Assembly (NCBI GenBank): GCA_029834535.1
Contig: JAQMWT010000501.1
Coordinates: forward strand, 1 to 41,559
Origin: Chrysophaeum taylorii
Lineage: Eukaryota > Sar > Pelagophyceae > Pelagomonadales > Pelagomonadaceae
Length of the DNA: 41,559 nt
Direction: 5' to 3'
Shown here in pieces: positions 2,774-41,559 of the stretch; position 1 is the first letter of the stretch; each line of letters opens with the position of its first letter. The position numbers and the translations under genes were made by a program. The notes under the pieces are model-generated. The model ran no database searches. It was not told the DNA's origin and was given only the letters and a program-made list of their open reading frames with translations.

Positions 2774-2929
2774 CATTACACCAGAGTTCCATTACTATTA
2801 CATTCCAATTCTACTATTTTCTACAAAAAATCACATTTCCAATAAAAACTCTTATGTTGTGATACTATCACTTCTAACCACGAACTTCCTTCTTTCATAC
2901 TGATTCAGTAGCTCATGCTTTCCTCTAAC

Positions 2930-9808: not shown

Positions 9809-9862
9809 AAAAATTGAATTAGGGTTAGTACCCCCTATTCTAGGGTTAATTCCCTTAACTTT

Positions 9863-11770
9863 ATGACGTCCTCCACCTTCGATCCGCACGATTATAAGAC
9901 TCTTCTAGGCAAAACCGCCGTCGTACTCGCCACTCGCAAACCCAACGGCCTGTTGTCCCTGCCGTCCCATCCAAAGCAAACATTTACAACTGTGCTTAGT
10001 TTCCACACAAGAAAACGAATGTCACTCAAGGATGAGATTGCGCACATCACACAGCATGTCCCCAAGACACGCTCTAAATCGCATACGCTTGATTTCGCCA
10101 AGCTACAGAATCATTCCCTGTATTTTACTGAACAGCTCAACCTCCCACATACTGTCGTCCACTACGCCTTTAATGGCACCGCAGACCTCTTTGTGCAAGC
10201 ACAACCCCCCCCGCTCAAAACAGCCATTATTGCAGGTGGACTTCACCAAGAAGGTTTCGACAAATCTCGCGCACAACAACTCTTCCCGCATGCTCAGCAT
10301 TATGTGGACCTCAGGAAGCTCAATGCCGCTTTACAAACCGGCAAAATCAGACTACCTCATTTTGACTTAGCGGTTTTCACACTGCCATGTCAACATTTTA
10401 AATGTAATGAAAGAATATGACGGCTACGCCACTCCAGTGACAGCCGACCTTTTTGTCACAGAACAAATCCGCTTGGTTCGCTTCACGCTCCCGACCTACG
10501 CCATTGTCGAGAACGTCCCTCCAAACCCCCGACCTCACCACGAGTACACCCAACTCGCCAAATGCCATCAGCGCTTAGGCTACTTCCGACACTCCAGTGT
10601 CTACAATGCCTCCGCTTTTGGTGACGTCATCAGCAAGAACCGCTATCTCGCTGTCTATGCCCGGCACCCGCTCACCGAATACAACCACGAGAAAAGTGCT
10701 TCTCCTTGGTTAACCTCGCCTCCGAGCATGGTTCCTCACCTTGACCCCAGACATACCATCCCTGACGATCTCTGGATCGCCAACCCCGCCCTTCGTGGTA
10801 CAGTGCCGCGCTCCACCTTGGACTACTACCAGCACAAGGCCACCTACTCCTACAAGCCCGCCAACGCCTCGATACTCCCGATTTCCGATAACGCACGCAT
10901 CTGCCAAATGCTTGCCCGCTTCACCAAGCCCTTCACGGACCTAGGTCTCGACGCCAACGGCACTCCCCACGCCGCCATGGCCCATATCTCCAATCTCCTA
11001 GTTTTCAAATTCCTGCACAATCACTTGTCGCAACACCCCACTCTCGCCGCTTGGAACACCATCCGCTGTTTTCATGCCGCAGAGTCCCAATGTGCTTACC
11101 ATTTGGATGGAGCCATCACCGGCACCGCCGCTACTGCCGTCGCATGTGGCTACTTCCCGCGCGCCTCCCTCACCCTCCATTCCAGGCCCCTCAGATATTA
11201 GACTGTTCCCATCAACCCAACGCACGCATTTTCCCTGGATGTTCCCAAGGGCACCGCCTTTCTAGTTGTCGCCTATACCACCTCCTTGGCCGCCGCTCAC
11301 AGCTGCACGCGCCCCTCCACGTGGGTTCACTACATGAATCGCTCGCATCCCGGCTTTGCCGCGATCGACTCACGAGGGCGAATTGCTCTCGATGACCCCA
11401 AGGGACTCATTATGTCCAAAGCACGTCCCACTTACGCGGACTACGTCGGCCACATCGGAGACACGCTTCAGAAAAGCACCAAGTGTTACTCGGTCACTGG
11501 CTCGTACCCAACAAACACGAGCTACTCCAACCCCTTGCTGCTGATCTCTCCAGACCACATCCGCTATGCGACCCTCAACGAAATCGCAAAGTTTGGACAC
11601 CACTCGGACCCGGAACTGCTCCGACTGTTCCAACAGCACCCGCCGTACTTCGCGTTTAAGGCACTGGCCAACGCCGTCCCGCACAATATGCTGCAGGAGA
11701 AGTACAACACGGTTCTCGCACTCCACGAATCGAACCACCACGTGAACCTTTACATCGAATGGGCAACGAT
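9863..11770 (+). pseudogene. E3 C5 cytosine methyltransferase domain
   Basis: C5-MTases transfer methyl from S-adenosylmethionine to cytosine C5. First frame (9863-10420): a degenerate motif I (AFNGTADLFVQA), then AQQLFPHAQHYVDLRKL like the NFP...GDIR region, and motif IV FDLAVFTLPCQHF with the nucleophile Cys codon at 10388-10390. After a frameshift near 10400 come motif VI (YAIVENVPP, about 10497-10523), LGYF, and motif VIII (SKNRYLAVYARHP, about 10630). An in-frame TAG at 11199 is followed without frame change by motifs IX and X: SNPLLLISPDHIRYATLNEI (11526-11585) and KALANAVPHNM (11658-11690). All signature motifs are in family order. One frameshift and one stop break the gene. Confidence 0.8.
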
Positions 11771-12902
11771 ACGCCATGGCATCCCCAGCCCCGGAGACAT
11801 CAACCAGCTTGCAGAATTCGTCTCGGCCATCTCCAGCCGTCTCTTAGCAGAGGAAGACCTGAACCTCACCTCCCTCTTCAATGCTGTTGCAGATACTCAC
11901 CATGATGCGATCCGCAAACCAAGCAAATCGCAAAACCTCGAGACGCTTCTCGCCGAGACAACCGTTGCCAAAGTCCGAGTTGACAAGCAACTCAGCCCCC
12001 CTAGCGCGTCGACCGCCGCACTGCCCCCCTTGCACAAGCCCGGCACCAGTCAGCACGCTAAAAGAGTGCTTTTGGTCACTCGCTGGCACCGCATACACCA
12101 CCAGCAACCAGAGATTCTTCGCCGCACGATTGCCGCTAATGTAACGAATCTTCGCCCAGGTGATGATAGGTATCTGCAAGACTGCAGCGAATGCAAGCGC
12201 TGTCAATCGCATGTCAGCTTCCGTCACAACAGCACTTCCTGGTCACTGGATGAACTAGCCTATGCTCCTGGCCAACACCTCCACATGGATGTATCATACC
12301 CGAGCATCAGCAAGTGCTACGGTGGATTTCGCTACATCATGCACTTCGTTTGTATTATCTCAGCACACAAGTGGGTCTATTTCCTGCGGAAACTAGACGC
12401 CCAGGATGTTCTGGTCGGCATCCTCTATGTGGTCAATGTGATTAAGGTCGAATTCGATGTCAGTGTGAAAATCATATCGTCGGATGCATTCTCAACTTTC
12501 CGCTCTGAAGCTTTCCACCCCCTCAAGGTGCAACTTGGCATCCAGTTTCAAATCCTTGGTCGCCACCTCCACCAGAGGAATTTCGCGGAAAACATCATCA
12601 AGGAAATCACCCGAGGCACCGTAGTTCGTCTCCTCAACCCTCGCAGTGTACGCATCGAAGGAAAGTCTATTGCCGCCGAGTATTATCATCCATTTGCTCT
12701 CCTGCATAAGATCCAAGCTGACAACCAGCGCTCTCATGGACTGCCCTCGCGCACAAACATGACATGCACCGTTTCCCCGACGTATCATGTCACCCATGGC
12801 ACCGCTCTTGAAGCTTCTCCCCTTTGGCGAACCTGTCACATTTGTCTACCCTCAAAGTCACAAGCTGGAACCCTCCAGCGTCTCCGCCTCTTACTTTCAT
12901 AG
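11771..12902 (+). pseudogene. E3 integrase
   Basis: Zinc-binding domain: RWHRIHH (about 12081-12101) paired with CSECKRC (12184-12204). Catalytic core: Asp in LHMDVSYPS (about 12282), Asp in IISSDAFSTF (about 12474) and Glu in HQRNFAENIIKEI (about 12571), the DDE set of retroviral-type integrases. It follows the methyltransferase in the same frame (frame open 11286-12902), so both were parts of one polyprotein. Near 12830 the frame shifts and continues as the linker. Confidence 0.85.
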
Positions 12903-14331
12903 TAACAACTATCTCCCGAACCTCCGCGGCACGGACCGATTTATCCGTGATGTTCACAGCTCTATCTTGTACATCAGGGACGATATGGAAAAATCGTCAC
13001 CTCTAACGACTTTCATGTTGACGCAGACATGCCAGTCAACCGTAAACAAGGAGATCGAACGGATCAAAGCACTCGCACAGATCCCAACAGAGGCACGGCA
13101 AGAGGACCCGCTACCAGCTATAATCGAACAGCAAATGCCGGAAGTTAGACAGGAATCGCAAAATGAGGTCGAGGCTCACGATGACGAGCACGATGATAAA
13201 CCTAGCGATGACGACGAACGCAAAGAACTGGATCCAACTCCCGCTGCTGATTCAAGTCCCGTCAGCGACGAGACACCTGAACAGGATTTTTCGTTCCTCA
13301 ACCGGCCACCTCCGCCTGATGGTAGCATTCCGATTCCCAAACGAAAAGATCGCCCAGAGGTTGTTCTCGACGATTCAGGTTTTACCCCAATTCTCGTGCA
13401 TCGCAACCAGAGCGATAAGCTCAAAGCAGATCTCAAGGACGAACGTGGATTTCGCATCCCTAAGGATCAGCTCTATATCGTGAAGCGTGTTGACGATGGA
13501 AAACTCTTCACCAGACGCATTATCGCCTCAGGGTATGGTCGCAACTGGAAATACCAGCAGGAGCAATCCACGGCTCACGCCACAGCCAACATGTCCAGCA
13601 CATTGATGTTCCTCATCAGTGTCAGCGCTCAGCACCAGGGCCACGCCGCCAGCATCGCATTTGATCTCAACATTCGAAGAGATGCTAAGCCGCCAAATGA
13701 TGTCCCGAAAGGATGTCTCCTAGCAAGTACCACACAAGACTATGGTATCATGGGCGGCACCGCACTGGATTTGCAGAGAGAAACCGATGCAGAACTCTTG
13801 TATGTTGACTTCCCAAGGAAGCCGTACCACTCGTCTGTATTGGTTGACCACCTTGATAATGACAATTCTGTTCTCGAGAACTATGTGTGCCACGACGAAC
13901 TGTCACCGGCAGAGTACTATGCGCGTCAATGGAACCAAGAGTTCCGTTGCATGGGTTCCTCTCTTTTGTGGGACATCTCCGCGCATCAACACTACCACCG
14001 AGCTTCTCGTCACAGGCATGCCTTATTGCATGATTCTGGCGAACTCGGACACCTCCTACTAAGTCAAAGTGATCCGAAACAACATATTCTCCAAGAAGTC
14101 ATGGACTATGATTTGCAGCACATCGATCACGTCGTCTTACAACTCGTGACCGCTGAAGATATTCTCTATGAGCCTGAAAAGATTGTCGAACTCAAAGGAC
14201 TCAGCGAAGAAGATAAGTTAAGCATGTCGCTTCGATTCGCAAAGAAATTGAAGGCTTGTGCTCCAACGGTGTCTTTAAACTTGAACCTTTACCGCCAGAC
14301 CGTTCGTCTATCTCGACGAAACTCGTGCTGA
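12787..14331 (+). pseudogene. E3 integrase C-terminus and integrase-RT linker
   Basis: Open frame of 514 codons. It starts as the integrase C-terminal part and becomes an acidic low-complexity linker (HDDEHDDKPSDDDERKELD near 13180). A basic patch follows (IPIPKRKDRPEVV near 13330). The end, LKGLSEEDKLSMS near 14190, corresponds to LKGLSDADRKAY of E1 and CLHGLSPENRHAY of E2, which directly precede RT. A frameshift near 14235-14280 leads into RT. The N-terminal third has no match that I recognise. Confidence 0.65.
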
Positions 14332-15146
14332 AGATCAAATATTTTGCTGATGGCACCCCAGACCGCTATAAAGCTCGTCTAGTCGCCCGAGGTTTCTTGG
14401 CACGTGTAGGCATTGACTTTGATGCCGCATCCTCCCCAACCGCAATGCTCGCCACCAACCGGCTACTGCTCGCCATCGCTGTGAAGCACAAGCCCCCGGT
14501 CGCGCACGCGGACATTCCTCAGGCATTCATCCAATCGGCACTCGATCGCCCAGTATGGATCGACTTCCCTCGAGGAATACGCGTCTCGCAAAATCTTCTC
14601 CAGCAGATACAGAAGAACCACCCAGAGTCGAAGCTCGCTCTCCGAGTCGTCAAGGCTCTCTATGGCATCAAACAGTCAGTTTTGTTGTGGAACATCAAAC
14701 TCGACTCGTTTCTTCGACAACATGAGTTCGAACGCTCACAAGTCGACACTTGCCTCTACATCAACTGGGATCGATCTATCAACAAATGGGTTCTACTATC
14801 CGTTTCAGTCGATGACCTATTGATCACTGGTACCAACACTGCCAAAATTACATCTCTTCGCATTGCTAGGGAGAAGGAATATGGCAAAGGTACGTGGCAT
14901 GACAACATCAGATCCTTTCTTGGTATCGATGTCCACTACAATGTCTCCGCTGGTCATCTCACTATGAATGTAGCAGCGAAGATCACCAAGATGCTCGCTG
15001 AGCATAAGCTCAACCTACATAGTCTGGACGCCCCCTATTCGGACATCCTCATTCAAAAACCTTCTGCTAAACTTCTCTCAGACTTGGCTCCTACCTTAGA
15101 CGTATTACGTCAAAATTTTCCTCACTACTATGGCACTAGTATTTAG
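14256..15146 (+). pseudogene. E3 reverse transcriptase
   Basis: RVT_2-type RT with YKARLVARGFLARVGIDF, VAHADIPQAFIQSALD, KALYGIKQSVLLW and the catalytic VSVDDLLIT (Asp codons at 14811-14816). Tyr of the usual YVDD is replaced by Ser, as in E1 and E2. The 3' end is degraded after APYSD (about 15030), where the frame runs to a stop at 15146 and RNase H resumes in another frame. Confidence 0.9.
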
Positions 15147-17659: not shown

Positions 17660-19404
17660 ATGCGAAGAAGACTCACGCTCGCGTACGAGGGCGCGTCGCC
17701 CGCCGTCTTCGAGATGGAGGTGCCCCCGAGCTGGCACCTCAAACCCTGCTCCAAGCTGTTGACCCACTTCGACCGCGCATATAGGGAAAAGTACCCCGAG
17801 GTCGAGCTCGAGGGCCCCCTCGAGCTGCTAAGCGTAGAGGGAAATGTCGTGGACCTGGGGTCCCCGATCGGGGTCGCGTCCTCGGAGCTCGTGGTCGCCC
17901 AGGTTGCAAAAGCCCCGATCGTTCTGGTCTTGGGCGAGTTGGAGACGAGCGTGGGACTCGCCGGCGAGGCTAAACCTCGAGCGGTCGTTCCGAGCTACGT
18001 CAAGGAAGTCTACGCGAAGAACCTCTTTGTTAGCGAGGCGACCGCCGGCGGGAGCCCGCTCGAACGCCTCTGCAAGCACCCGGAGGGATCAAAGGCCCGC
18101 TACCCGATCGGGAGCATTGGCCTCAAGTACGAAAAGCGAATCAAAAAATCAAACGGCGTGAGCTTTAAGGGCTGGGTTGACATCGAACTCATCGTGCGCA
18201 ACGCCCTCGTCGAGAGCGGGCTGCGCGTCGCCGGCCGCCACGCAGTTTGTGTTGTCCCGAGCCGCGCGAGCGCCAACTTCTGCACTCATATTTTGGAATT
18301 GCTCTTCTGCCAGCACGGCGCCGAGACGGCCTGCGTCGTGCCGCTCGCGGCGGCCGCGATCACACTCATCACCAGTACCACCAACGACGCTCCCTCGTGG
18401 CGCGCTGACGCCTGCGTCCTCGAGTGCGGCCACGACTCGACTTGCGCGATCGTCCTGGAGAATGGCGTCGAGAGCGCGCTGCGGTGGACCCTACGCGGCG
18501 GCCACCACGTCTCGCACATGTTTGACGAACTCGTGCGCAAGGCCGCCGGCGCGGACGTCTTCTCCGGTACCCACGATCTTCATGTAACCAAAAAACGACT
18601 GTGCTACGCGCGCCGCCTCGACGACGACGATGATGTCCGCGTTGCGGGCCGCGTCGGCCTCGTCGACGGCGGCGACGTTTTCGTCGCCGAGGAGGCCTTC
18701 CTCGCGCCCGAGGTCCTCTTCGTCGCCGGCGACCAAGCCCCATCTCTCCACCGCATTGCCGTTGACGCCATCCGCGCGGCGGGGGGGGATCATCCCGCTC
18801 GTCTCGCCACACTCTTTGCTAACCTCGTCGTCACGGGCTCCGACGACGCGCTCCTCAGAGACCTCGACGTCCGCTTCGCCCAGGAGCTCGCCAAACTCAT
18901 TCACTACCGCGCGCGCGTCTCTTTCTTTCTTTCTTGCTTGCTTGCTTCTTCTCCAAGTGGCCACAGGCGCGTGCGAGCGACGGCCGCGCCCGCGTGGGAC
19001 AGTGCGTTTGTTGTTGTTGTTGTTGTTGTTGTTGTGCAAACCTTCCTCCTTGGCCTGTGCTGCGACGACTCCTCTCTCCCTCCGTGTACTACAAATGAGG
19101 ACTTCTCGCAAGGTGCCATCGCCTTTGCGGCATGCCTCGCGTCGCCGACTGTCTCCGCGGAGTGGATTGTTACGCGCGCGGAGTTCGATCAGATGATGCA
19201 TGACAACACCGTCACGGCCAAGGACCCGCAGCGGCGCCCCGACGGCGGTGACGACCGTGGCCCCGCACGGTGCGTAGAGACGGTTTCTTTTTTCTTCTGG
19301 CTGACCCCCCCTAACTTGTCGTTTGGTTGTCCGTGGTCAGGCTCAAAGTAGTCGTCGACAGCCTGAGCCCCAAGGACGACGAGGACGCTCCACCGGACTC
19401 CTAG
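17660..19404 (+). CDS. Actin-related protein with N-terminal extension, three exons
   Basis: The C-terminal half is actin-fold: AFLAPEVLF (actin CPEVLF), NLVVTGSDDALLRDLDVRFAQEL (actin NIVLSGGTT...RMQKEI, here lacking the SGG phosphate loop) and FAACLASPTVSAEWIVTRAEFDQ (actin [20 protein letters not shown]). The N-terminal 100 residues are an extra domain I do not recognise, with a ubiquitin-like feel. Proposed exons 17660-19001, 19113-19269 and 19341-19404 give 520 residues. Intron 1 (111 bp) has GTGCGT/AAG and a TTG repeat; intron 2 (71 bp) has GTGCGT/CAG. The Phe/Ser/Leu insert at 18917-18966 looks intronic (GT...CAG), but removing it shifts the frame, so it is left in. Degenerate nucleotide-binding residues suggest an ARP rather than true actin. 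Confidence 0.7.
19008..19035 (+). repeat. (TTG)n microsatellite in intron 1 of the actin-related gene
   Basis: Nine tandem TTG units directly after the proposed 5' splice site. It stays in frame if the intron is retained. Confidence 0.85.
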
Positions 19405-20087: not shown

Positions 20088-20283
20088 CTTGCCAGGCGAA
20101 CAAAACGTCGTCTATTGGCGAACTTTCGAACAATTCACCAACTACTCACCAAAAACACGTTGTCCCATACAACCTCTGACGTTGTTTCGAAATTCCGTTT
20201 TGACACGCCCCGACTACAAGTCTTCTTGTATTTCAGATGATACCCTACTTAAAATCGACCGTTAATTTAGAGACAAGTGCAGG

Positions 20284-20612
20284 CCAGTAAGTTCACCTAG
20301 TCCCAATCTCTAACCCCAGTAAGTTCACCTGGTCCCAGTAAGTTCACCTAGTCCCAATCTCTAACCCCAGTAAATTCGGCGTAAGCCCACTCGTGCTCAC
20401 ACCCACTCACCCCACTCTCCTTCGAGCTCGTCGCTCTCACCCCCGCCAATCTAAGCTGCGTTGATCCGCAGACGCCGCCAACCTTTGAGTTTACTCTAAA
20501 AGCCCCAGTAAGTTCACACTTGGTCTCAGTAAGTTCACCTGGTCACTAAGTTCACCTAGTCCCAATCTCTAACCCCAGTAAGTTCACCTGGTCCCAGTAA
20601 GTTAACCTATAG
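20284..20612 (+). repeat. Clustered AGTAAGTTCACC repeats
   Basis: About eight copies of CCAGTAAGTTCACCT(A/G)GTC occur at 20284, 20316, 20335, 20367 (diverged), 20503, 20527, 20546, 20575 and 20594. Some are followed by CCAATCTCTAACC, giving a composite higher-order unit. A 110-bp spacer at about 20390-20500 separates two sub-clusters. Nothing coding was seen between 20088 and 20284. Confidence 0.85.
20442..20496 (+). repeat. Dispersed repeat, + copy (partner at 24927-24987)
   Basis: Contains CCCGCCAATCTAAG and GAGTTTACTC about 30 bp apart. Both occur in the same order on the opposite strand at 24987-24927. It lies between the two AGTAAGTTCACC sub-clusters. Confidence 0.65.
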
Positions 20613-20659
20613 TGCGCGTGTAGACGCTGGGAGGGGGCTTATCAGTATTGCGCAGCACG

Positions 20660-21195
20660 TGTGGAGTAGGGTGGAGTCGTCGACTCAGAAGAGGATATCC
20701 TCGGGGTTGCCGATCGACAGAGAGCCACGTAGAGCTGGACGTGGCAGAAGACGGGCTTCGCCAAGAGGATGCCGACCTCGCGGGGCGTCTGGCCCTGGCT
20801 CTTGGTGATCGTTTGGCGTCGGCGGGCCTTAAGGAATACAGGCTGGAGGAGCCTCGGTGACAACGACACGATCGATCACGTATCTGGTACCGTTGCAGTG
20901 GCCGTGCGACGGGTCGAGGTTGCGAAGACTTTAAGCTCGCGATCAAAGTCAGCATGCCGTTGGTTGTCAGGGAGTTCAAAACTCGACTCTTGAGAGCGAG
21001 GCGTCGTCTTCCGACCCAACCTAGTCGGCCGAAAAGAACTCCGACGCCTCGTCTCCGGGAAAAAAAGGCCGCGGTTATGCGCGCGTTGTCAGCATCGACA
21101 ACATCGTCTGAAAGAGCCGCCGCGGGTCGTGGAAATAGTCTGCGAGGTCGCCGTAGACGGCTTGGAGGATCACTGTCTGGCTCTCGCGCCTACCT
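20660..21195 (-). pseudogene. Pif1/Helitron-type helicase C-terminal relic
   Basis: Reading the - strand from 21195 down and allowing frame changes, the blocks are VYGDLADYFHDPRRL, FPGDEASEFFSAD, LNSLTTNGM, RNLDPSHGHCNGTRYVID and TITKSQGQTPREVGI, then VFCHVQLYVALCRS. These match, in order, the C-terminal region of Pif1-family helicases (LNSL..NGMP, LRNLDP..G.CNGTR, KSQGQT, GQLYVALSR), as carried by Helitrons. About 20 residues are missing before the KSQGQT block, and at least two frameshifts and stops occur. No Rep/HUH domain was seen, so a Helitron origin rather than a host Pif1 gene is an inference. Confidence 0.75.
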
Positions 21196-21240
21196 GATCC
21201 TTACTCTCGTGCCTACCTGATCCTTACCCTAAATCGAGGG

Positions 21241-21286
21241 ACAAACAGACAGACAAACAAACAAACAAACAAACAGACAAACATCT
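21241..21286 (+). repeat. (CAAA/CAGA)n microsatellite
   Basis: Tandem ACAA and ACAG tetranucleotides. Just upstream a 24-bp unit (CTCTCGTGCCTACCTGATCC-like) is duplicated at about 21181-21229. Positions 21290-21619 hold nothing that I recognise. Confidence 0.85.
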
Positions 21287-21619
21287 GTCGATTAGTAGTT
21301 AGGACCCTTTAAACGAACGAAAAAATGAGTCATCAGTGTGACTTTCAGACGTCGTCGCTTTTTGTTCGATTCGAACACCACCTTCTCCAGGCGCTGGAGC
21401 GCGTTGCAGTGGTGCTCTATTACGTACTGGACTTCGTCTCTACCGGCCTTAGGACACCTCATCCGACGGTCGAGCCAACGTCCAGAGTAAATGGGGAATG
21501 AAGACGGACGCGCTACGGGATGCGTCGTCACACGAGATGGCCAAGCATTTCTGGCCTGTCCGTTGAGACGTCAGCAATCGTGCATTCCACGTCAGTATAA
21601 TTGCCGATCCTAAACCCTG

Positions 21620-26484: not shown

Positions 26485-27570
26485 TGTTGCGCGACACCCG
26501 GCGTGGTCTCGAAGAGCATGCCTTTGAGGCAGTACGGGGGCTGCAATGTGGCGATGGACCCTCGGGAGACGCACGAGCGTCCAGGGATGTGGTGCGAGGC
26601 CCACGGGATATCGCTGTTTAGGTGGCCACACAACGATACAATGTTTTGCGTCCCTCTTAAGAACGGGAAGTAGCACCTGTTGACCTAACTAACTAACTTC
26701 AGACCTCTCCCGAGCATGGGAGCTAGGCCGGACCGGCAGGAGCCGGTACGGAATCACAGAGGAAAATCACGCAGTTGGGGCAGAGGCGAGGGACGAGGAC
26801 GGACTTGTTGATGGTGGACCGCCACTGCGCGCGGTCTTGTGCGAGGTCGTGCAAAAGCGTCGCAGGCCGCGGACGTGTTGGTCCACGAACAATCGACCTG
26901 TCCGTCGCTGTTGACCGTGGTTCGGCAACGTGGAAAAAAGCACTGGTGATGCGAAGAAACACGGCGGGCGAAAACGTATATACTCAAACGACAGTAGCTT
27001 GGGTTCTCACGTTTTTTTTGTCGCACGAAGCCCTTACTCGCGCCTCCTGTCGGTTGACCTACTGTTTGGAAGCGGACGACTTCTTGGAAGCGGACGACTT
27101 CTAGAGGCCGGTTTGCCGATCTGAGCGAGAACTCGATGTTTCCCGACTTTGTCCAATACCACCGGTCCCCGACCTCATCGACATACACCTCAAGTCGAGG
27201 GCTGCTACTTTCCGATACGAGCATCTTGAAGAACGAAGACAAGCAGTCTTGAATACACTGCGAGTTCCGATCCAAAGTGAGCCCATCTCTACTAAGGAAA
27301 CAGCCCTAGTTTGAATTCGGAGCGTTCCCTGCTTCTACGACTCCGATTGTCAGAATACGGGGCGAGATTCGACACAAGACTCGCCGCGAGCTCCAGCGGC
27401 TTCTTCGCCGGACGTTTTCATGAGGCACGACGATCGAACCTAGGGGATATCAATATTGATAACCCTAGATCGAACTACGCCGCACCTTGTCAACGACCTA
27501 TACGGACTCTCGAGTGTATCCTCGGTTTCGGCAGATGGGGCGGCCAAGCGCCGCTCAGCATCGTCGAAAT
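26485..27570 (+). pseudogene. Carbohydrate sulfotransferase pseudogene, paralogue of the gene at 28870
   Basis: Blocks collinear with the intact gene downstream: GTGTTGC.CGAC near 26486, CCAGGGATGTGGTGCGAGGC (26581) for the PGMWCQA region, AAGAACGGGAA (26660) for the PAPS loop, SHVFFVARSPYSRLLS (27018) for the 3'-phosphate site, GTCGAGGGCTGCTACTTTCC (27195) identical to the intact gene, and the ending CQRPIRTLE...ILGFGRWGGQAP (27490-27555). Stops and frameshifts are present throughout. A LINE 3' fragment (26685-26907) is inserted right after the PAPS-loop region, with an 8-bp duplication of pseudogene sequence. The copy is an older tandem duplicate. Confidence 0.85.
26685..26907 (-). mobile_element. 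5'-truncated LINE 3' end inserted in the sulfotransferase pseudogene
   Basis: 223-bp insertion flanked by CTGTTGAC at 26677-26684 and 26908-26915. On the - strand it encodes DLAQDRAQWRSTINK, matching the C-terminus of the LINE ORF (SLAQNRDN at about 24810). It continues through a GGCTCCTGCCGGTCCGGCCT-containing 3' untranslated tail and ends in (GTTA)n at 26685-26697. The flanks join perfectly when compared with the intact sulfotransferase gene. Confidence 0.85.
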
Positions 27571-27585
27571 CCAGCCAACCGGGAC

Positions 27586-27777
27586 TGACTAACTAATTTA
27601 CTAACTAACTAACTTCAGACCTCTCCCGAGCATGGGAGCCACGCCGGGCCGACAGGAGCCAGAATCACGGAGGAAGCACACAGTTGGGGTAGAGGGCGCG
27701 ATGGACGAGTACGAGTGGATGGCGGACCGCCAGTGAGCGCGATCTTGTGCGAGGTCGTGCTCGTCGCGTCGGAGGCC
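27586..27777 (-). mobile_element. 5'-truncated LINE 3' end just after the sulfotransferase pseudogene
   Basis: 192-bp fragment similar along its length to 26685-26907, with the same GGTCTGAAG plus GTTA-repeat tail on the - strand. Near-perfect 12-bp flanking duplication: GCCAACCGGGAC at 27574-27585 and GCCAACGGGGAC at 27778-27789 (one mismatch). Confidence 0.82.
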
Positions 27778-27956
27778 GCCAACGGGGACAAAGTGTCATT
27801 ACCGAGGTATGTGTGGAGACGTGAGGGATGCCGAAAAGGCGGAGGTATCCCGTTCAGGGGTTGGGGGGTTTTGTGAAGACGTCAGGGGTGCCTGAAAGGC
27901 GGGGCCTAGTCGAGGTCATCGTCGAGCCGCGGGGCAGGCGAAGATACGCCCGTAGG

Positions 27957-31585: not shown

Positions 31586-31650
31586 CTCCACGTTCCCGTA
31601 CCGGCTCCTGCCGGTCCGGCCTGGCTCCCATGCTCGGGAGAGATCTGAAG
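31586..31650 (+). mobile_element. Short LINE/SINE 3' tail fragment
   Basis: Contains CCGGCTCCTGCCGGTCCGGC and CTCCCATGCTCGGGAGAG, the 3' tail shared with 26685-26907, 27586-27777 and 37044-37111. It lacks the GTTA repeats. GTGCAG flanks it at 31580-31585 and 31651-31656, possibly a short target-site duplication. Confidence 0.65.
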
Positions 31651-31829
31651 GTGCAGAGAAATCTGCTGCCTCTTACCCTTATTCGTCCGTTGAGAACGCG
31701 GTCGCTTCCTTACCCTTCTTCTTCCTTTCTACACAAGCAAATAGTCCTCTGATTTGTGCCTACGCTCATCATCCTGGTCAAGCGCGTCCCGAGGTATGTA
31801 GCACTATACACTTAACCTTGCTCGTGTAG

Positions 31830-32483
31830 TTCTAGATGCCGCCTGTCGTGTTCTGAGGATATAGGGAACATGACCTGCATTCCCCGAATTAACCTTTCCA
31901 GACGTACACGATGAGACGGGATGGTTTCCCAGGTGACTTACCACTGCTTGCTAAATGCTCTGCAGGTTATGGGCCCAGGCGGGTCCCTGAGAAACCATGT
32001 CTCAACATGCACGTAACCTATGGGTATTGGGTCGTTACCGCGCCGACCTAGCCTCGACATGTGATACGCTTGTCAATATATCGCCATTACCATTGAGCTG
32101 TATATAATACCCTTTTGCACACGTGATCGTGTAACCTTGTGTGCACCTGTTCATAGCATCGTATTGTCATGTCAATGTTGATGTGTGTGTAATTGGCTAA
32201 CCTGTACTCTTGCACACATGTTATGGAATATTTTGGGTACGTCCACTCGTACATTACATGGCAATGCTTAACAAGCTCCTTGGGAGCACCAAAACTAACC
32301 AGCTGCCTGAGTGACTACGCTTAGCGACACTACTCTGGACTCATAGCTTGCACAGTCGTCATATAGACACATTTTCCATCGAAAAATCGATGAGTGTACA
32401 TAGACACCGACAGACAGACCCCCTTAGAATGTCTAGACAGTGTCAACTGCGTGACTGAACCCACAGTTTCCCCGTCAACTGCT
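31830..32483 (+). promoter_or_regulatory. E2 5' leader, probably including the 5' LTR
   Basis: Noncoding, AT-rich like E2 and directly ahead of its gag. A TATA-like box TATATAATA sits at 32101-32109, plausible for the LTR promoter that drives transcription of the element. The 3' LTR is outside the window, so LTR borders and the tRNA primer site could not be fixed. Confidence 0.4.
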
Positions 32484-33696
32484 ATGGCAGAACACGCAGC
32501 ACGAGCCGCACCCAGGGCGATCAGAGGTGCGGATATATTGAAGCTCGAAGCTCCTGTAGCTGAGTTTCTTAACCCTTTTTGTTGGCATTTCACCAACGAT
32601 GCTTTCCCCCACTCACCTGATGCAGAAGTAGCTCAGCTAGCTACTGTCTGTTACGACTATGAAGTCAAGGCATTACGTCCAAATCAATGCTCGTTTCTTA
32701 GAAGAGGAACGAATCTTAAATCGCGCGCACCCGAAAGCATTAGCTTTCGACACTCGTGTTCGTGCCCCGGTTACCATGTTTTCGTTAACTGCAGCTGACT
32801 GGCACACTTACCAGAACACGTACGCTACATTCTTGCATACTTACTTCAATCTTGAAAGTGTTGGAAAACCGGCACTTGCGGCCTGGCCCGCCATCAATGA
32901 GATATACAACAAAAGCTATTTACCCAACAAGGCTCGAGCTATTATGCTCATCGCCTTTAGTCACTACGAGTCTGTTACGACTACTGATGTGTCTTATTTG
33001 AAACAGCAATTTAACTCTGTTGTTTATAATCCTAACTGGTATGTCCATGTATTTATCGAAGCTGTCCTAGCATTTAGGCAAATCTCTTACCAACTTAACC
33101 AGGAAGAGACTGACCTTCAATTCGACTTTGGCACTCTTTGTAGAAAAATCTATGAAGAGATACATCGGCATTATGCCGATAATACCAGCAACAACCGTTA
33201 CGATCGTGGTTGGGTAGATTGGTGTTATATGTACGAAACCCGATCTTCATCTCGACCTGTACCAGAAGCTGAACGATTGTGTCACCCTACCAACCCAAGC
33301 TACATTTTAGAATACGCATTAGACCTTTACAATGTCGTATCAAATGGGTCGAACAAAAGACGCTTAGAACGCCCTGTTTCTTGGCAACCCTATGTCGAAG
33401 GTTTATCATCTCAACCAAAGCCAAAGTTACTTACACATACTTTGGACTCATCGGACAAAAGTCTGACTCAAACTGCTAACACACTCGCCTTCATCACTTC
33501 GTCCCAACCTGGTACATCTTCCACGTTTAATGCTAGACGCTTGCGTAACTCTAATGATGCTCGCCAGCCTTTCTCTCGCAGCGATTTATCGTATTATCGT
33601 CCTGGTGATTCTTACGTCACCAAGAAAACTGCCGGACAGTCCCATGACCGTCCAATTTACCCCGCACTTTTGACAGGTCCTCTCGGTCTAACATGA
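32484..33696 (+). pseudogene. E2 Gag
   Basis: Capsid-type protein of the element, assigned by its place ahead of protease. It begins at the ATG at 32484 (MAEHAARAAPRAIRG), shifts by one base near 32700 (into RFLEEERIL) and then runs openly to 33696. The body is helical and rich in Tyr/Trp/His, with YNKSYLPNKARAIMLIAF and YLKQQFNSV, compatible with a copia gag fold. No CCHC zinc knuckle is seen. The C-terminus is basic and Ser/Arg-rich. The stop overlaps the next ORF start in ATGA. Confidence 0.65.
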
Positions 33697-34060
33697 AATT
33701 ATTAGATCGAACAAACCACACCTTAAACACCCTGCGAGAACAGTGTAGCGAACTCACGAAGCATGTGACAGATAATGATACCACGGCTCAGCTACAACAT
33801 AATATCAACAAGTTATTTGAGACCTTGCTACAATCAGCCGATATCCTGTCAACAACATCTACTGAGGACAACAGTAGTTTACTTCGTCTAAACGAACAGC
33901 TCATGTTTGCAGAAGACATCATTTATGATGTAGACGTTCATCTATCCTCGACCGAAAAGTCGTTAAACTACGTGGAGCCACAACACCATACTGTTGTACT
34001 GCTCCCACCCCAACAACAGCTCCTCCTACTACAAACACACAGGGTAATCCTTCCAATACT
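33693..34060 (+). pseudogene. E2 linker ORF between Gag and protease
   Basis: Starts at the ATGA overlap with the gag stop and is in the -1 frame relative to gag. The first 105 codons are probably genuine (LDRTNHTLNTLREQC, then an amphipathic region with LQHNINKLFETLLQSA). It then becomes Pro/Gln/Thr low-complexity and shifts frame near 34000 into the protease frame. The homologous segment opens the window in E1. Confidence 0.6.
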
Positions 34061-35011
34061 GTGTCTAACCTCTTTACCGCTTCCGCCATCTCGGCTTTAC
34101 CACCAGCATTATTGTCCTCGCTATCTTCACAGGTCCAATCTGCCCTCAACCTACCGTCACAAGCCGAAACCAAAAGGGATGCCGATCACACCTCTCTATC
34201 GTCATTTGACGAAAAGCACGGCATGGCTGATGAGGCTGACGAGCCATCACCACCTGTTCAACCGATCATTATTCCAACGAATCTGTTATTGCTGAAGAAC
34301 TTCTTTACCGCCAGTCTCTCCACTACTTGCCCACATTCGGAAAACGCCTTCCTCACCAACTACATGAAGGTAAACAGTGTCCCTCCACATTGCTCTTTTC
34401 TATATTTTGACTCTTGTGCTACCATCTCATTGATGTCCACCTACGATTTCGCAATACCCAATCATATAATTCCATTGGACTCTACATACGCTCCGGTTGT
34501 TATTCAGACGGCAACAGGACAACAACGGGCATCACACATGATGTTAACACGCAACATCGTTATTCCCCTACCAGATCATCCACAAATTGGCTACGTTAAG
34601 ATCGACTTCGCTTTATGTCTTCAACCAGTGCATGACCGACATCTCGCTATCCTGAGCATGCTCGAATGGAACCAGACCAATCTTACCACCGTGTTCAACG
34701 ATCGAGCTGAGCCAAAGCTCAGCGCTGTCACGAGCCGCATAGACAAAGATGTACGTATACCCATACACTATGTCGCAGCTAATTTACCCGCTCTCCCTTG
34801 TATCACTTACAACATCGCGCGCGACAAGCGGCTGGAACTTCGCTCCCTTGCATTTCCCCTCAAGCGATACCATGAAAACAGGGAGCTACTGGCATACTAC
34901 AATTACCTACTCCAACGAGTTTTACCAGATCGGCCGTGGATTCGCCCTTTGGTTCTCAATCTTCGGAAACAGAACAAATTTGTTCAGCAAAATACGCAGC
35001 CATTAAGTTGA
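34061..35011 (+). pseudogene. E2 retropepsin-like aspartic protease
   Basis: Open frame of 316 codons. The triad is YFDSCATISLM (Asp codon 34409-34411), with Cys in place of the usual Gly. Following blocks (VVIQTATGQQR, HPQIGYVKIDFAL, HLAILSMLEWN) align with E1. It would cut the Gag-Pol precursor. It ends at TGA 35009-35011, and the methyltransferase continues in the same frame, so either this stop is a mutation or readthrough separates the two. Confidence 0.65.
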
Positions 35012-36500
35012 CTACTCGCACGGCCAGTTTTTCTCTCACAAGAGTCCAATCTCCGCAAACCCTCTGTCATGTTACTTTGTTCTGGTTTGTCAACTCCGGC
35101 GTTCCTGTCTCAAGCCACTAATGACTTAGGCTTAAATATCAATGTAAAAGTTGTTGTTGAGTCTGATGATACGCTTGTTCGTATGTTACGCCACCGTTTT
35201 CCTACTGTACTATTATTTGAATCTCTCCCCGCCTTTATTAACCATCTTCACCTAATCTCACCAGAGGAAAGGCGCACATTCTATTGTGATATAATTGAGA
35301 TCACTCCTCCCTGCACAAACAGGAATTTACTAAAACAACAAAAGTCAGAAGACTTACACAGTCTGCTGGACGATTCTCTTTTCGACAGCATGCTGTCTGT
35401 CATCAAGCTACTCCAGCCCTTGGTACTACTGGCTGAGATGACGCCTCCGCATAAGTACTGTCATCAAGACCACATCACAGTGGCCAACCTTATCTATACT
35501 ACCCTTGATTACTGTGTCGATGTTGTTGATAGGTTCCCGACCTACCTATGTGGCGACTACCAATCTAGAGAAAGGTGGATATGCGTCGCACGCAGATATT
35601 CTACTGGACCAATTAAACTATCATCGTGGCCCATCCTCCATCCACGCCCCTTCCTAAAGATCGTGGATGATCTACAAGCTATTCCCAAGCGCCTTTGGCT
35701 ACCTAACCACATAACCAAAGACTGGATCCGGGTGTTCCCCGATCCTCCATACATATCCATTCCTAAAACGTTTGCACCTTACTCTCGCACAGGTTCTGCT
35801 CAGCTTACTATGGCTGACCTTGAATCCCTCAATATGTTACTACTTCGCCTTCACTCACAACAGGCTCACGAGCAACGTACTCACTCTGTTCAACCCGAGT
35901 GTACTTACCATCAGTTGTGCTTTAAACGCTCCTCTATGGAGCCATTACCCAATGCAACACATCCTATACACGTCAAGATTTTTACAATCCTCTATAACGT
36001 GTTCGCAAGCTTACATACTAACTCACCCACTCCTGTGTCCTATTACATAACCGTTTTCGAAACTAACCAACCGTCACACAGGTTATTACTTACAACCTCA
36101 TCAACATCACACAACTCCTACTTCTTAACTGGTGGCCACCATTCCGACGGCAACCTCACCATAGAGAACGCCACCTCCAACCAAAAGACCCCCATCAACG
36201 CCTTTGGGAGCACGTATACGTTCACTGCTTCCGACATCCCCCGCGACCGGGACAGGTCCATATATCTGGAGCCGTTTATGGGTTACTTGTGGATAGTCCA
36301 AGCCCTTCCCCAAGTTGGCTCCGCTACTACCTATGGCACCGCCATACAAAACCTCGTGTCCAGATGCGCTCTCGTGATGCCTGGCTGCCTTACCTACAAG
36401 GCCACCGACAACTCTTTCGATTACAAGGATTCTCTTTTTGCTCTGGAAGATCATCACCTATCTCATAGTCGCTATATAGGGTACCTTCGTGGAAGTGACC

Positions 36501-37111
36501 CTGATCGCCGACTACGGTTGCGATGGAGGACGGTGCCTCATGAATCCTGAGCCTTGCGAGGGCATCCGCCCTCCCGGCGTAGGTTGGCACCTAGTCGCCT
36601 CCCGGGCGGGCCGGTTGGCAGCCGGAACGTTCGCAGTGGGACGGGGTATGGCCGGGGGGCGAAGACGGAAGGTTATCGACGAGTTGGTTGTCAGTCACAT
36701 CGCGGTCTCCTCGTCGCATGGCGACAAGCTTGATGGTCACTCTCCGCCGACCGACCTTTCGGCGCTCCTCGTCTACAGGCCCGTGGAGGATGGTGCCTCA
36801 TGAATCCTGAGCCTTGCGAGGGCATCCGCCCTCCCGGCGTAGGTTGGCACCTAGTCGCCTCCCGGGCGGGCCGGTTGGCAGCCGGAACGTTCGCAGTGGG
36901 ACGGGGTATGGCCGGGGGGCGAAGACGGAAGGTTATCGACGAGTTGGTTGCCAGTCACATCGCGGTCTCCTCGTCGCATGGCGACAAGCTTGATGGTCAC
37001 TCTCCGCCGACCGACCTTTCGGCGCTCCTCGTCTACAGGCCCGTGATTCCGGACTGGCTCCTATCGGTCCGGCCTGGCTCCCATGCTCTGGAGAGGTCTG
37101 AAGTTAGTTAG
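36501..37111 (+). mobile_element. Non-autonomous LINE-derived insertion inside the E2 methyltransferase
   Basis: Flanked by a perfect 15-bp duplication TTCGTGGAAGTGACC (36486-36500 and 37112-37126); removing the insert and one copy restores collinearity with E1. It is built from a 23-bp start, two 260-bp tandem units, and a 68-bp 3' tail (37044-37111) ending GTTAGTTAG. The units contain GGCAGCCGGAACGTTCGCA, also at 21725 in the 5' part of the LINE relic; the tail equals the LINE 3' end at 26685-26750 and 27586-27660. So both LINE ends are present and the middle is absent. Confidence 0.88.
36524..37043 (+). repeat. 260-bp tandem duplication within the insertion
   Basis: Two units, 36524-36783 and 36784-37043, nearly identical (for example GGTTGTCAG versus GGTTGCCAG). 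Each is open in one frame, from MNPEPCEGIRPPG to LLVYRP, so it may derive from LINE coding sequence or from a 5' monomer promoter repeat. Confidence 0.92.
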
Positions 37112-37689
37112 TTCGTGGAAGTGACCGCAAGCTCGGCTCTAAAATCCACTCAATGCTTGCTCCATTGCCAACCGTCCGATATGCCAATATTATTTTACTC
37201 GACCCTCGCAACGGGAAATTACGCTACCCCACTCGACCGGAGTTGATTCGTGCTAACAACCACACCAAACAACAGGAATCTTTCCTCTTGTCTCTACGCC
37301 ATGACCTTTGCTGTGACATGCTCAGCAATGCTCTGCCTACCGGTACGTATAGCACCCTGTACAAGCACCTTTCGCTCATCGTCGCCGATATTAAATCCCT
37401 TATGTTGGACCCTACCTTCCAACATACTGCTGCCGTGACGAAGAAATCCTATGTATCCAATTTCATGACCGTTGACCCAGCCTCCACCACGTGCAGCACA
37501 GATACCTTGTCTTTGGCACAATCTTTTATGATGTCTATTTCCAGCAACTGCTTGACCGAAATGTCGTTAAACTATATATCGTCGTCCTACGAAGATACTC
37601 TCGCTACTCGTGATAATGAGGATGCACCTCCAAGTGACCCTGCTGTGCACCAGGATGACGACGCACCGCCTTCCACTGCCTTAGACACC

Positions 37690-38700
37690 GAACTCAAGTT
37701 CGATGTTCGGCGCAAACGGCACATTCCCGCTCATCCATTCCTCGTAAGTTCCTCGCACACGGATCCACCGAATATCTCAATGCCAAAGAACGTGCTAATC
37801 GCTTTCACCGGGTGCATCACTGCCCCGACAACGTCGCTGCCAAGGCCCCCAACGTACTTGCTCGCCCTGGATTCTCTGCTTCTGACATACCATATCGCGA
37901 CTTATGCACCGACTGCATCGCACACAACAAGCGCCACCCGCACAAGCATTTCAATGCGACCAAGCCTTCTTTTGAGCAAACCCACAAAGCCGGTGAAGTC
38001 TGGGCGTGCGACGGCGGCTATGTGACCATCCCATCCGAATGGGGAGGCTTCACACATATCATCGTCTTCAAGGAACTCATTTCGAAATTTCTCTTGGTGT
38101 ACTTTACACGCACCACCAACGCCACGGAGTTCACTCAAGCTCTGGATTTTGTGTATGACTTCTGTCGTACACAACTCAATGTGCACATGCGCACCCTCTA
38201 CTCCGATGCATTCAAGCCTTACTTTAGCCAGCACATTACCTCCCCGTACCGCGTCGATAAGGGCATTCAACTCATTGCCTTCCCGCCGTACATGCACCAC
38301 TTTAACTTTGAAGTTGAGTCTGCCATCGGTTTCATCGCCTCCGCCTCCTCAACTCGCCTTCGTTCTCTCCTTAATGCTCACTATCGTGGCGCCAAGATCG
38401 TGGAACCCGCTATCATGTTCCCATGGGCGGTGATACACACCGTTCAAAGCTATAACCTTCTCCCGAACGCCACGCTCGAGCGCATTCATCATGCTATTCT
38501 GAGTCCGCAACAGCTACTCTACAACCAACTCAGCACTCCCCAACACGATATGCTCAAGATCTTTGGCGCTGAATGTTACCTCCTATTGGAGCCCCATGAA
38601 CACCACAAGTGGGAACCGTGCCGCCGCAAATATCTGTATCTCTGTTGCGCCAACGCACAAAACCCGCTCGTCTCCTCAACCCTGAAAACGGACAAATCCG
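37690..38700 (+). pseudogene. E2 integrase
   Basis: Zinc-binding part: RFHRVHH (about 37812) and LCTDCIAH (37902). Core: Asp in WACDGGYVTIPSEWG (38008), Asp in LYSDAFKPYFSQ (38203) and Glu in NFEVESAIGFIAS (38312). C-terminal part: SPQQLLYNQLSTPQHDML, CYLLLEPHEHHKWEPCRRKY. A frameshift near 37740 precedes the zinc domain and another near 38680 follows the core. All catalytic residues are retained. Confidence 0.88.
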
Positions 38701-40552
38701 TGTTTGGTCCAAGCTGCAATTCCTCTACATGTTGCAGCATCCTACTCCTGATCCTGAATTAGCTCCTCCGCCACATGCTCCTTCCGCGCCTTTCTCGCTC
38801 ACACCCCACACCACTATACAAGACCATGTCATTCAGAGGGGGACAAGGACTTCTCATGCTCAGAGGGGGCACTCCCCACCTCCTTCAGCTCCTCCTTCTT
38901 CGTCCCCTACTCCGGCCTCTTCTCCATCTTCTGACGCTACCGCCGACGAATCTGGCTCTATGTCACCGCCGCCCTTGCTTCCTTCTTACAAAGACCTTTT
39001 TGCACAAGATAACCTCATTCTTGTCCCAGGTTCCAAACAGCCTAACACTCGCAAGGCCACTTCTATGAAAACTATCCGAGCCCGGTTACAAGCGTCTACT
39101 ATTGGTGCTTACAAAGCCGCTGGTGGCAAGCTCGCCGATTTCCGCTGGGATCTTCGCCACCACTTTCTTACGTTCAAGTCTCCCGCCCTCTCCGCCCTTC
39201 ATCTCCGTGGTGGTATCCTCTGGTCTGCTATCTGCTCAGAGGGGAACATGCGTCGTTAGCTCGTCTTGTTCTCCCGTTGCGCACTGACTTACTTGCCCGC
39301 TACCCGCACGTCGATGGTTACTTCGCCCACGCCAAGTGCGCATCCAGCATCCCAGCTAACTGCTGATGGTTCACCTACGTGCCCTATTCCTCAGCCCCTT
39401 TTATCTGCGTTCACTGAACACGCTGCTGCCTTCGGCACTTCTTCCTTACAATATGCACTTACGTACCTGGCGCCGACCAGCTTTATTGATCACAACTCAT
39501 CCGAGTTTGGCGCTACTTCTGCATCTCTGGCTGACTTGGAGGAATACCTTCTGGTCTCTACAGAGTTTATCACCCAGGTCTTACGTACCGACCCTACTAT
39601 CCATATCCAACTGGAATCTGCCCCTACTACTCCTACCGACGCTGTTTCCGCTTATCCCGAAGTTGCGCACACTGCCTCGACCGCAACGTCGCTAAACTAT
39701 AATTCACCAGCCACTGTTGGTCCTGACGAATATAAGGTCCAAGAAGCGGACGTTTCCATTGACGAATATAAACTTAAGTGCCTCCACGGTTTGTCGCCTG
39801 AAAACAGGCACGCCTACCTCAAGGCCATCGCCAAGGAACTCCACGACATTATCCGCTTTGGCTGCTTCAAACTTTCCTTACCCGACGGTGTCTCTCGTCC
39901 TATTGACAGCAAGATGGTGCTGAAGATTAAAACAGACTCTGCAGGCAAATACGTTAAGCACAAGGCTCGCCTCGTACTACGTGGCTTCCTAGCATCTCTT
40001 GGCGCCGATTTCTTTGGTACCTTCAGCCCCATGGCCACTATGACCGCAATCCGGGTACTACTAGCTATTGCAGCATACAAGCAATTGCCTGTCTACCATG
40101 CAGACGTCCCGAACGCCTTCGTTCAGTCTGACATCGATGCCAATGTCTATGTTCAGTTACCAGACGGCATCAAGCTTATCGACCCCGATGACGCTAAGTA
40201 CAAGGGCCGACGTCTACCGAAACTGCTGAAGTCACTTTATGGACTTCGGCAATCACCATCCCTTTGGAACAAAGAGATAGACGGCTTCTTCCGTAGCCTT
40301 GGTTACAAACGCCTGCATTCGGACTCTTGCCTATATGCTCGAGTATCCGCACATGCTAAGTTCGTCGTATGCAGTCTGTCTGTAGACGACATTGTTATTG
40401 TGTCCAATGACGACCCTCTTCGTACTGAATTACAGGATGCCCTCCACAAACGGTATGCTGTAGAGCAGTTTGAACCTGTCCATACCCTCCTAGGCATGCG
40501 TGTGTGTCGCACATCTGACGGCTCCATTTCTCTGATGTGCCAAGCTGGATGA
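38609..40552 (+). pseudogene. E2 integrase C-terminus, linker and reverse transcriptase
   Basis: LNPENGQIRVWSKL near 38675 is the integrase C-terminus shared with E1. A Pro/Ser linker with three CAGAGGGG-type purine tracts follows. The frame breaks at 39259 and resumes to 40552 as RT: DEYKVQEADVSIDEYKL, KHKARLVLRGFLASLGADFF, HADVPNAFVQSDID, KSLYGLRQSPSLW and catalytic LSVDDIVIV (Asp codons 40385-40390). Ser replaces the Tyr of YVDD. It shifts frame after MCQAG near 40550. Confidence 0.9.
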
Positions 40553-41559
40553 ACTCTTCGCTGATCACCCAGTCTTGCAGCAACTGACCCCGCTTAAATA
40601 TCCTATGTCATCGTCCTTCAAGTATAAAGATGGCACTCCCAGCACTGAAACAGAGTTGTACATCAACTCGCACTTTGCCACCCTCCTTGGCAAGCTGGTG
40701 TTCATGCAAGTTGCCTGCAGACCTGACTTCTCGCAAGCCTTGGGCAGATGTTCGCGTGGTATGCATGCACCCACATATGTTCACGTCCAAATGCTAGAGC
40801 ATTTACTTCGCTACCTCAAGAAGCCGGAAAACCGCTCACTTCGCCTCTGGTTTCATCCTAAAGGTAATGCCATTGAAGCTCACCTTCGCACTGTCTCCGC
40901 TAATCGAATTGATCTATCCACTGTGGTCGACTACCAACCAGGATGTATCTACTGGACAGTTTGACCCCTTAGTTGCCATGGTTGACGCTGACAATGCCCT
41001 TCCTTAGCACAGGAAGATAGGAAATCTACCACCGGGTTTGTCTTCTATCTTTTCAACTGCCTTATTGGTTGGAAAAGCAAACTTCAACCGATTGTCTCCT
41101 GCTCAACTCACGAAGCTGAGTTGATTGCCCTCAGTATTTGTGCTGATGAAGCTGTTTGGCTACGCAAGCTGCTGTTGGAACTCTCCTTGTCGTCAACCCC
41201 ACCTTCTACGTCAACAATGCTAATGGTGAGAACACCGCTGATCCTGTTGACTTCGATGACAATGACAACCCAATTGCTGAAGATATGCGCTTCATCAGAA
41301 GCCTCACCTTTTGTCTGACAATGCTGCCGCTGTTCACACCCTAATAACCCAGATGGGTCCTCTCGATCCAAGGCACTGTCGACTAGATGTTTTAAGATCC
41401 GTGAGTACATATCGCTTCAGAAAATACGAGTCCATCATGTTCCCGGCAAGCTGAACGTGGCGGATGGGTTTACAAAACCACTTGCTGCTGAGTTCTCCAC
41501 TTTCGTTCTCTACTCGGTATGCATCATGCTTCACGACAACTTTTTACAGGATTGAAGAT
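40553..41559 (+). pseudogene. E2 RNase H domain
   Basis: Connection: LLGKLVFMQV, RCSRGMHAPTYVHVQ, RYLKKPENRSLRLW. RNase H: MVDADNA (40979; Asp), SCSTHEAELIALS (41096; Glu), LSDNAAAVHT (about 41311; Asp) and VADGFTKPLA (41459). Frameshifts near 40945, 41005, 41180 and 41310 and one base-level break per 100-150 bp show decay. The natural end is close to 41553; the 3' LTR would follow outside the window. Confidence 0.85.

Follow-up and report, generated by a model that had tools for sequence, protein, structure and literature searches.

A Ty1/copia retrotransposon of the pelagophyte Chrysophaeum taylorii, here termed E2, carries in its pol a domain that is almost certainly a divergent homologue of cytosine-5 DNA methyltransferases (C5-MTases). 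As judged from sequence, E2 and a second family of the same genome, E1, are related Ty1/copia families with a predicted C5-MTase between protease and integrase, acquired before the two split. DNA methylation is a usual means of transposon silencing; transposons that bring along the writer enzyme are therefore paradoxical, and few hosts are known to have them. Here, a copia element bears a domain akin to the enzymes by which cells silence jumping genes. The evidence comes from family searches on relatives of the domain, from the alignment of E2 with E1 and from purifying selection between copies. On these grounds, the claim of a preceding sequence-only reading, that a C5-MTase is built into copia pol, has held up both for the identity of the domain and for its place, which is collinear in E1.

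Architecture of E2 and its copies

The window, i.e., the whole stretch of DNA analysed (41,559 nucleotides), is contig 501 of the Chrysophaeum taylorii genome (70.8 Mb, 697 contigs), which was searched for further copies. E2 lies on the forward strand at 31652–41559 and runs off the contig end. Comparison of copies showed that its 5′ edge near 31652, with TG as the first letters, is common to other copies; its 3′ end is beyond position 41559, and of a candidate LTR pair the window shows this common 5′ edge. The gag-protease region (32484–35011), outlined by the open frames of other copies, is followed on the same strand by the part of the C5-MTase domain with motifs I–VIII and a TRD-like stretch (35069–36500), delimited by family searches on relatives, conservation in the E2 alignment A1, alignment with E1 and motifs. 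Then come a 611-bp insert (36501–37111) and the C-terminal MTase part (37112–37401). The latter was located by tblastn, with the L009 domain as query (95.9%), and contains YPTRPEL, which resembles motif IX, and SNALP as motif X. The integrase (37737–38675), found by Pfam search and tblastn, comprises a zinc-finger pattern, rve and SH3, and the region of reverse transcriptase and RNase H (38672–41559) extends up to the contig end; the former matches RVT_2 at 2.1e-42, while RNase H was recognised by eye only.

As its integrase precedes the RVT_2 reverse transcriptase, E2 is a Ty1/copia element. Downstream of the zinc-finger pattern (37815–37928) come SH3 (9.4e-5), rve (0.0011) and RVT_2, the first two each under their own Pfam cut-offs; the order of rve/SH3 and then RVT_2 recurs in L009 and in the E1 copy L041, with rve under the cut-off each time. 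A protease-like DSCATIS was noticed by eye at 34409–34429, a stretch for which Pfam gave no match. The MTase motifs thus sit between DSCATIS and the zinc-finger pattern, i.e., between protease and integrase, as the sequence-only reading had it.

The window copy of E2 is broken. Its gag has suffered a local deletion near 32573–32583 relative to other copies, together with frame changes, and its MTase is split by the 611-bp insert, which consists of two 260-bp units and a tail and is flanked by a 15-bp target-site duplication (TTCGTGGAAGTGACC at 36486–36500 and 37112–37126). This insert explains why the domain had earlier been described in two pieces (35069–36500 and 37127–37440), a description that rightly allowed for a split. 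The insert is a tandem form of a short interspersed repeat, of which related pieces are present elsewhere in the window (26685–26870, 27601–27779 and 31596–31650) as well as in loci L010, L013, L018 and L020. Another recurrent sequence, roughly 1 kb long and itself made up in part of short repeats (window 20267–21305), lies beside or within several E2 copies; it was found in L011, L014, L015 and L018, three in a row in L011.

Including E2, the window holds three MTase-bearing copia elements, all on the forward strand. A decayed relative of E2 with the same MTase domain occupies 1359–5485 and was recognised from MTase pieces with 40–67% identity in tblastn and from the motifs LLCSGMST, CGDYQARERW, STRELARA and ANAIP. 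A broken E1 copy extends over 9857–14615; its stretch 10407–11198 matches PF00145 at 0.0018, its domain is 72–87% identical to that of L041, and it displays the motifs TLPCQH (10379), VENVPP (10506), GDVISKNR (10620) and ANAVP (11667). The window also contains an ORF at 17660–19351 with an Actin match (PF00022, 2.3e-9) and long overlapping frames on the opposite strand; this ORF probably belongs to a host gene related to actin.

In the whole genome, the E2 window ORF gave 90 matches, corresponding to at least 87 places (three copies were counted twice). Eleven of the 90 fall within open frames 1000 aa or more in length; hence, the search for intact copies proposed earlier did find uninterrupted ones elsewhere.

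Identity and conservation of the methyltransferase domain

The window ORF with the domain (35069–36547) had no Pfam match at E ≤ 1 and no NCBIfam match at E ≤ 0.1, its single family match being phrog_116 at 0.0082, and the E2 profile matched no PDB sequence at E ≤ 1. Direct assignment to the C5-MTases through Pfam, NCBIfam and PDB sequences, whether from the window ORF or from the profile of E2, failed accordingly, one weak match (E 0.39) being unrelated. Pfam annotation can overlook such domains, as the zero score of the window ORF illustrates.

The assignment is instead based on relatives. The product of an MMETSP transcript, P0003 (392 aa), is 42% identical to E2 over 338 columns and is the sole E2 relative at E ≤ 0.01 in a database of 5.8 billion proteins, with 3903 candidates scored. 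P0003 matches PF00145 at 4.4e-4 (20.2 bits, under the cut-off of 22) and phrog_116, a phage DNA-MTase family, at 3e-8. In the E1 copy L041, the domain found at the same place in the element matches PF00145 at 2e-8 and 34.5 bits, above the cut-off, and TIGR00675 (dcm) at 2.9e-8, far below that model's own cut-off. PF00145 matched all eight members of the E1 alignment A2 and 3 of the 15 members of A1 at E ≤ 1, while matches of E1 in PDB were weak, with M.HhaI first (E 0.26). Between the profiles of E1 and E2, 210 columns can be aligned, and these take in motifs I, IV, VI and VIII (probability 68%, E 5e-5); for E1 against P0003, hhalign gave 5.4e-6 (probability 86%). The sequence-only reading had named the lack of a significant C5-MTase match as its refutation. 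For the window ORF alone, Pfam gave no such match, and it is through the relatives P0003 and E1 that this refutation is overturned.

The E1 domain had no match at E ≤ 0.01 among 8000 candidates scored from the 5.8 billion proteins. In viral contigs, none of 79 candidate stretches was related to E2; one of 203 candidate stretches for E1 was a phage-type C5-MTase at 28%. A structure model of the domain, built from a five-row alignment, is of low confidence (mean pLDDT 36.8, pTM 0.28); strands and helices follow each other in it as in a Rossmann core, the PPC coming behind strand four, but we gave it no weight.

In E2, motifs I (LLCSGLST, 35072–35095), IV (EITPPC, 35297–35314), VI (LLAEMTPPH, 35426–35452), VIII (CGDYQSRERW, 35549–35578) and X (SNALP, 37324–37338) were all found where they had been reported before, and we add by eye a candidate motif IX, YPTRPEL (37225–37245). 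The PPC of motif IV with the catalytic Cys, the Glu of AEM in motif VI and the QxRxR of motif VIII (Q168, R170, R172) are invariant in 15 of 15 A1 sequences, P0003 included. Motif VI had been called degenerate; AEM does differ from ENV, but it keeps the Glu of ENV and is less degenerate than claimed. In E1, FTLPC is found in 19 of 19 loci, which are 18 places because L037 and L041 are one, and VENVPP in 16 of the 19; motif VIII has the form ISKxR, in which the last Arg alone of QxRxR is kept. Motif I, the glycine-rich SAM loop, usually has the form FxGxG. It is atypical both in E2 (CSGLST, one Gly kept) and in E1 (AGGLHQ), while the gypsy copy L042, discussed below, has LFSGAGG; the residues after PPC in E2 also depart from the usual PCQxxS. 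Motifs IX and X follow the TRD in the expected order, by eye, as YPTRPEL/SNALP in E2, RYATLNEIA/ANAVP in E1 and STRELARA/ANAIP in the element at 1359–5485.

The domain has evolved under purifying selection. Median pairwise dN/dS was 0.222 in E2 (135 pairs, 17 copies) and 0.147 in E1 (45 pairs, 10 copies), pairs with fewer than 8 synonymous changes being dropped; the pairs are non-independent, and the copies were among the best matches to the MTase query or picked for long frames, so that intact copies are favoured. By region of E2, with pairs under 5 synonymous changes dropped, dN/dS was 0.117 for motifs I–VIII (142 pairs) and 0.061 for motifs IX–X (89 pairs) vs. 0.161 for the integrase (123 pairs) and 0.088 for the reverse transcriptase (22 pairs, 10 copies); it reached 0.263 in the TRD (150 pairs) and 0.271 in the linker between MTase and integrase (109 pairs). 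The catalytic parts are thus constrained about as the integrase and reverse transcriptase are, and more tightly than the TRD and linker. Three stops were seen in the matched stretches of motifs I–VIII and none in the other E2 regions.

Proposed expression and function

A candidate readthrough stop, the in-frame TGA CTA at 35009–35014 on the forward strand, marks the boundary between the gag-protease and MTase-integrase-reverse transcriptase parts of E2. Comparison of copies showed an in-frame TGA at this boundary in 13 of 18 copies, 9 of the 13 reading TGACTA; in the remaining five, the TGA stretch is not in register. UGA CUA is a leaky stop, and therefore the pol with the MTase may come from readthrough. 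In the scenario we propose, the UGA after gag-protease is probably read through, yielding a pol that begins with the MTase, and the protease would then probably cut this pol. As a neighbour of the integrase in pol, the MTase would accompany the new cDNA and most likely methylate cytosines in it, either inside the particle or when the cDNA is integrated. A new copy would arrive pre-methylated and could then be kept so by host methylation. Possible gains discussed by De Mendoza et al. 2018 (PMC5890265) are that the element is taken for host DNA, that it is shielded from deaminases or degradation, or that it transposes more slowly and so spares the host.

Comparison of copies showed no CpG-to-TpG excess, neither in E2 (CG<->TG 0.033 vs. 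CA<->TA 0.054) nor in E1 (0.176 vs. 0.083–0.192 in other contexts). This speaks against a lasting CpG mark, since CpG sites methylated over long periods and decaying would have left such an excess.

Other explanations have to be weighed. One might suppose that the motifs arose by chance in an unrelated pol spacer, which would agree with the missing Pfam match of the window ORF, the missing PDB sequence match of the E2 profile at E ≤ 1 and the low confidence of the structure model; however, P0003 and E1 do match significantly, and E1 and E2 align collinearly, which largely contradicts this idea, and we regard it as extremely improbable. Alternatively, the fold might have been kept without catalysis, as a nucleic-acid-binding module steering integration or packaging. 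The atypical motif I and the altered residues after PPC in E2 point in this direction, but Cys, Glu and QxRxR would hardly be expected to stay invariant in 15 of 15 sequences, or FTLPC in all 19 E1 loci (18 places), in a domain freed from catalysis, and the catalytic parts are under tighter constraint than the TRD. A non-catalytic role is rather unlikely in our opinion, and the domain of E2 and E1 is probably an active enzyme.

Such an enzyme might act on RNA, not DNA, with the genomic RNA or the primer tRNA as its target, and thereby aid packaging, stability or priming. DNMT2-type enzymes, which share the fold, act on tRNA, and the CpG decay signal was not seen between copies; the authors of the 2018 study raise RNA methylation for SymbioLINE-Dnmt, which gave no DNA methylation in yeast (PMC5890265). 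Against an RNA target stand the matches to families of DNA C5-MTases and the presence of a TRD-like part; E1 also has no special similarity to the host DNMT2-like protein, although a comparison of single sequences is a weak test. On balance, action on RNA appears quite unlikely, and we lean towards DNA as the substrate of the copia MTase. That the element's own cDNA would be the main target is somewhat more doubtful, its chance falling a little short of even. To the proposal as a whole, which joins capture of a C5-MTase in copia pol before the split, UGA readthrough and methylation of the element's own cDNA, we would give an even chance. Because Chrysophaeum taylorii is in culture, the benefit that a transposon draws from a methyltransferase of its own can be put to the test.

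Origin of the domain and comparison with known systems

The reverse transcriptases of E1 and E2 are 43% identical over 148 columns, and the alignment of the two families is continuous from motif IX through the integrase (529 columns, 23%, 2e-19). Such continuity indicates that E1 and E2 have a common MTase-integrase junction, and the capture is therefore older than their split.

PF00145 gave 124 matches in the genome. The two that rank highest resemble host genes: L021 is DNMT2-like by eye, and L022 (G000:C621, 7.9e-18) is a C5-MTase whose open frame of 2086 aa includes acidic stretches of low complexity. Ranks 3–20 are E1 MTases in 18 of the 18 loci fetched. A group of 26 matches has 21.9 bits (E 0.00416) at about profile positions 2–53, and the one that was read, L042 (C235), is a Ty3/gypsy element by its domain order, in which RVT_1 is followed by RNase H and an integrase domain of the H2C2 type. 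A different C5-MTase domain (2631–3830, forward strand) precedes the reverse transcriptase, with LFSGAGG, SPPC, SSRVR and a motif IX-X-like end, all by eye. This domain matches PF00145 at 7.7e-6, the whole ORF scoring 22.6 bits, just above the cut-off, and phrog_116 at 8.4e-8. Separately, mitochondrial cox1 was found in three pieces across 14 kb (L043–L045, G000:C696), with long reverse-transcriptase-like frames, by eye, between the pieces, as in group II introns; contigs C696 and C697 are organellar. Among the 120 matches listed for the RuBisCO large subunit (8000 scored), the one with an organism name is Pelagococcus subviridis at 93%, and the closest matches reach 97%.

In hhalign comparisons of single sequences, a weak test, the copia and gypsy MTase domains had no mutual similarity, and a single origin for them found no support there; the same weak test revealed no clear similarity of the copia MTase to the two host-like DNMTs found. 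Overall, the comparison suggests two captures. If the C5-MTase assignment is true, the capture in copia predates the split of two families, and a gypsy case is added to copia within one genome. We are more doubtful of a broader scenario for this small algal genome, in which copia and gypsy, as LTR superfamilies without relation to each other, acquired separate methyltransferases, that of copia before the two-family split and constrained like integrase; were this unlikely scenario true, the host would make self-methylation a near-requirement for LTR elements, and the elements would supply much of the new DNA methylation.

In the open-licence PMC literature, we found no pelagophyte copia element described as having a C5-MTase and no paper that brings Chrysophaeum and retrotransposons together; the word "transposable" does not occur in the Chrysophaeum taylorii genome paper (PMC10366177). 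According to another paper, DNMT5a is present in pelagophytes, and DNMT5 accompanies heavy linker methylation in Aureococcus (PMC9998398). The 2018 study describes captures of DNMTs by LINE and DIRS elements in Symbiodinium and by a Gypsy element in Klebsormidium, and states that in Symbiodinium the LTR Copia are devoid of a DNMT domain (PMC5890265); a later paper credits it with DNMT3 members in "LTR Copia and DIRS" elements (PMC12344493). Because captures have been published for elements of the LINE, DIRS and Gypsy types, and Copia of Symbiodinium lacks a DNMT domain, the copia capture looks separate, set apart by the type of its host element; E1 and E2, being copia, fall outside SymbioLINE, SymbioDIRS and KnitGypsy.

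KnitGypsy-Dnmt3 of Klebsormidium nitens (PMC5890265) resembles E2 in having a C5-MTase with intact key residues in the Pol of an LTR retrotransposon, likewise under purifying selection (Ka/Ks < 0.2). Unlike this Gypsy element of a charophyte, with its enzyme of the Dnmt3 clade, E2 is a copia with a divergent enzyme in a stramenopile host; the gypsy element L042 would be the nearer parallel. SymbioDIRS-Dnmt3 and SymbioLINE-Dnmt of Symbiodinium are similar in being many retrotransposon copies with a C5-MTase, yet they are DIRS and LINE elements, while E1 and E2 are copia (PMC5890265). With PF00145, dcm (TIGR00675) and phrog_116, the copia domain shares the motif order IV, VI, VIII, X and the catalytic Cys and Glu; it differs in its atypical motif I, long TRD-like part and site in a retrotransposon polyprotein, and E2 scores under the family cut-offs. 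If our assignment is true, the copia superfamily and a stramenopile host are added to the DNMT-bearing retrotransposons. The idea of a retrotransposon with a C5-MTase is a known one; what differs here is the superfamily, the group of hosts and the position of the domain, and the enzyme is divergent.
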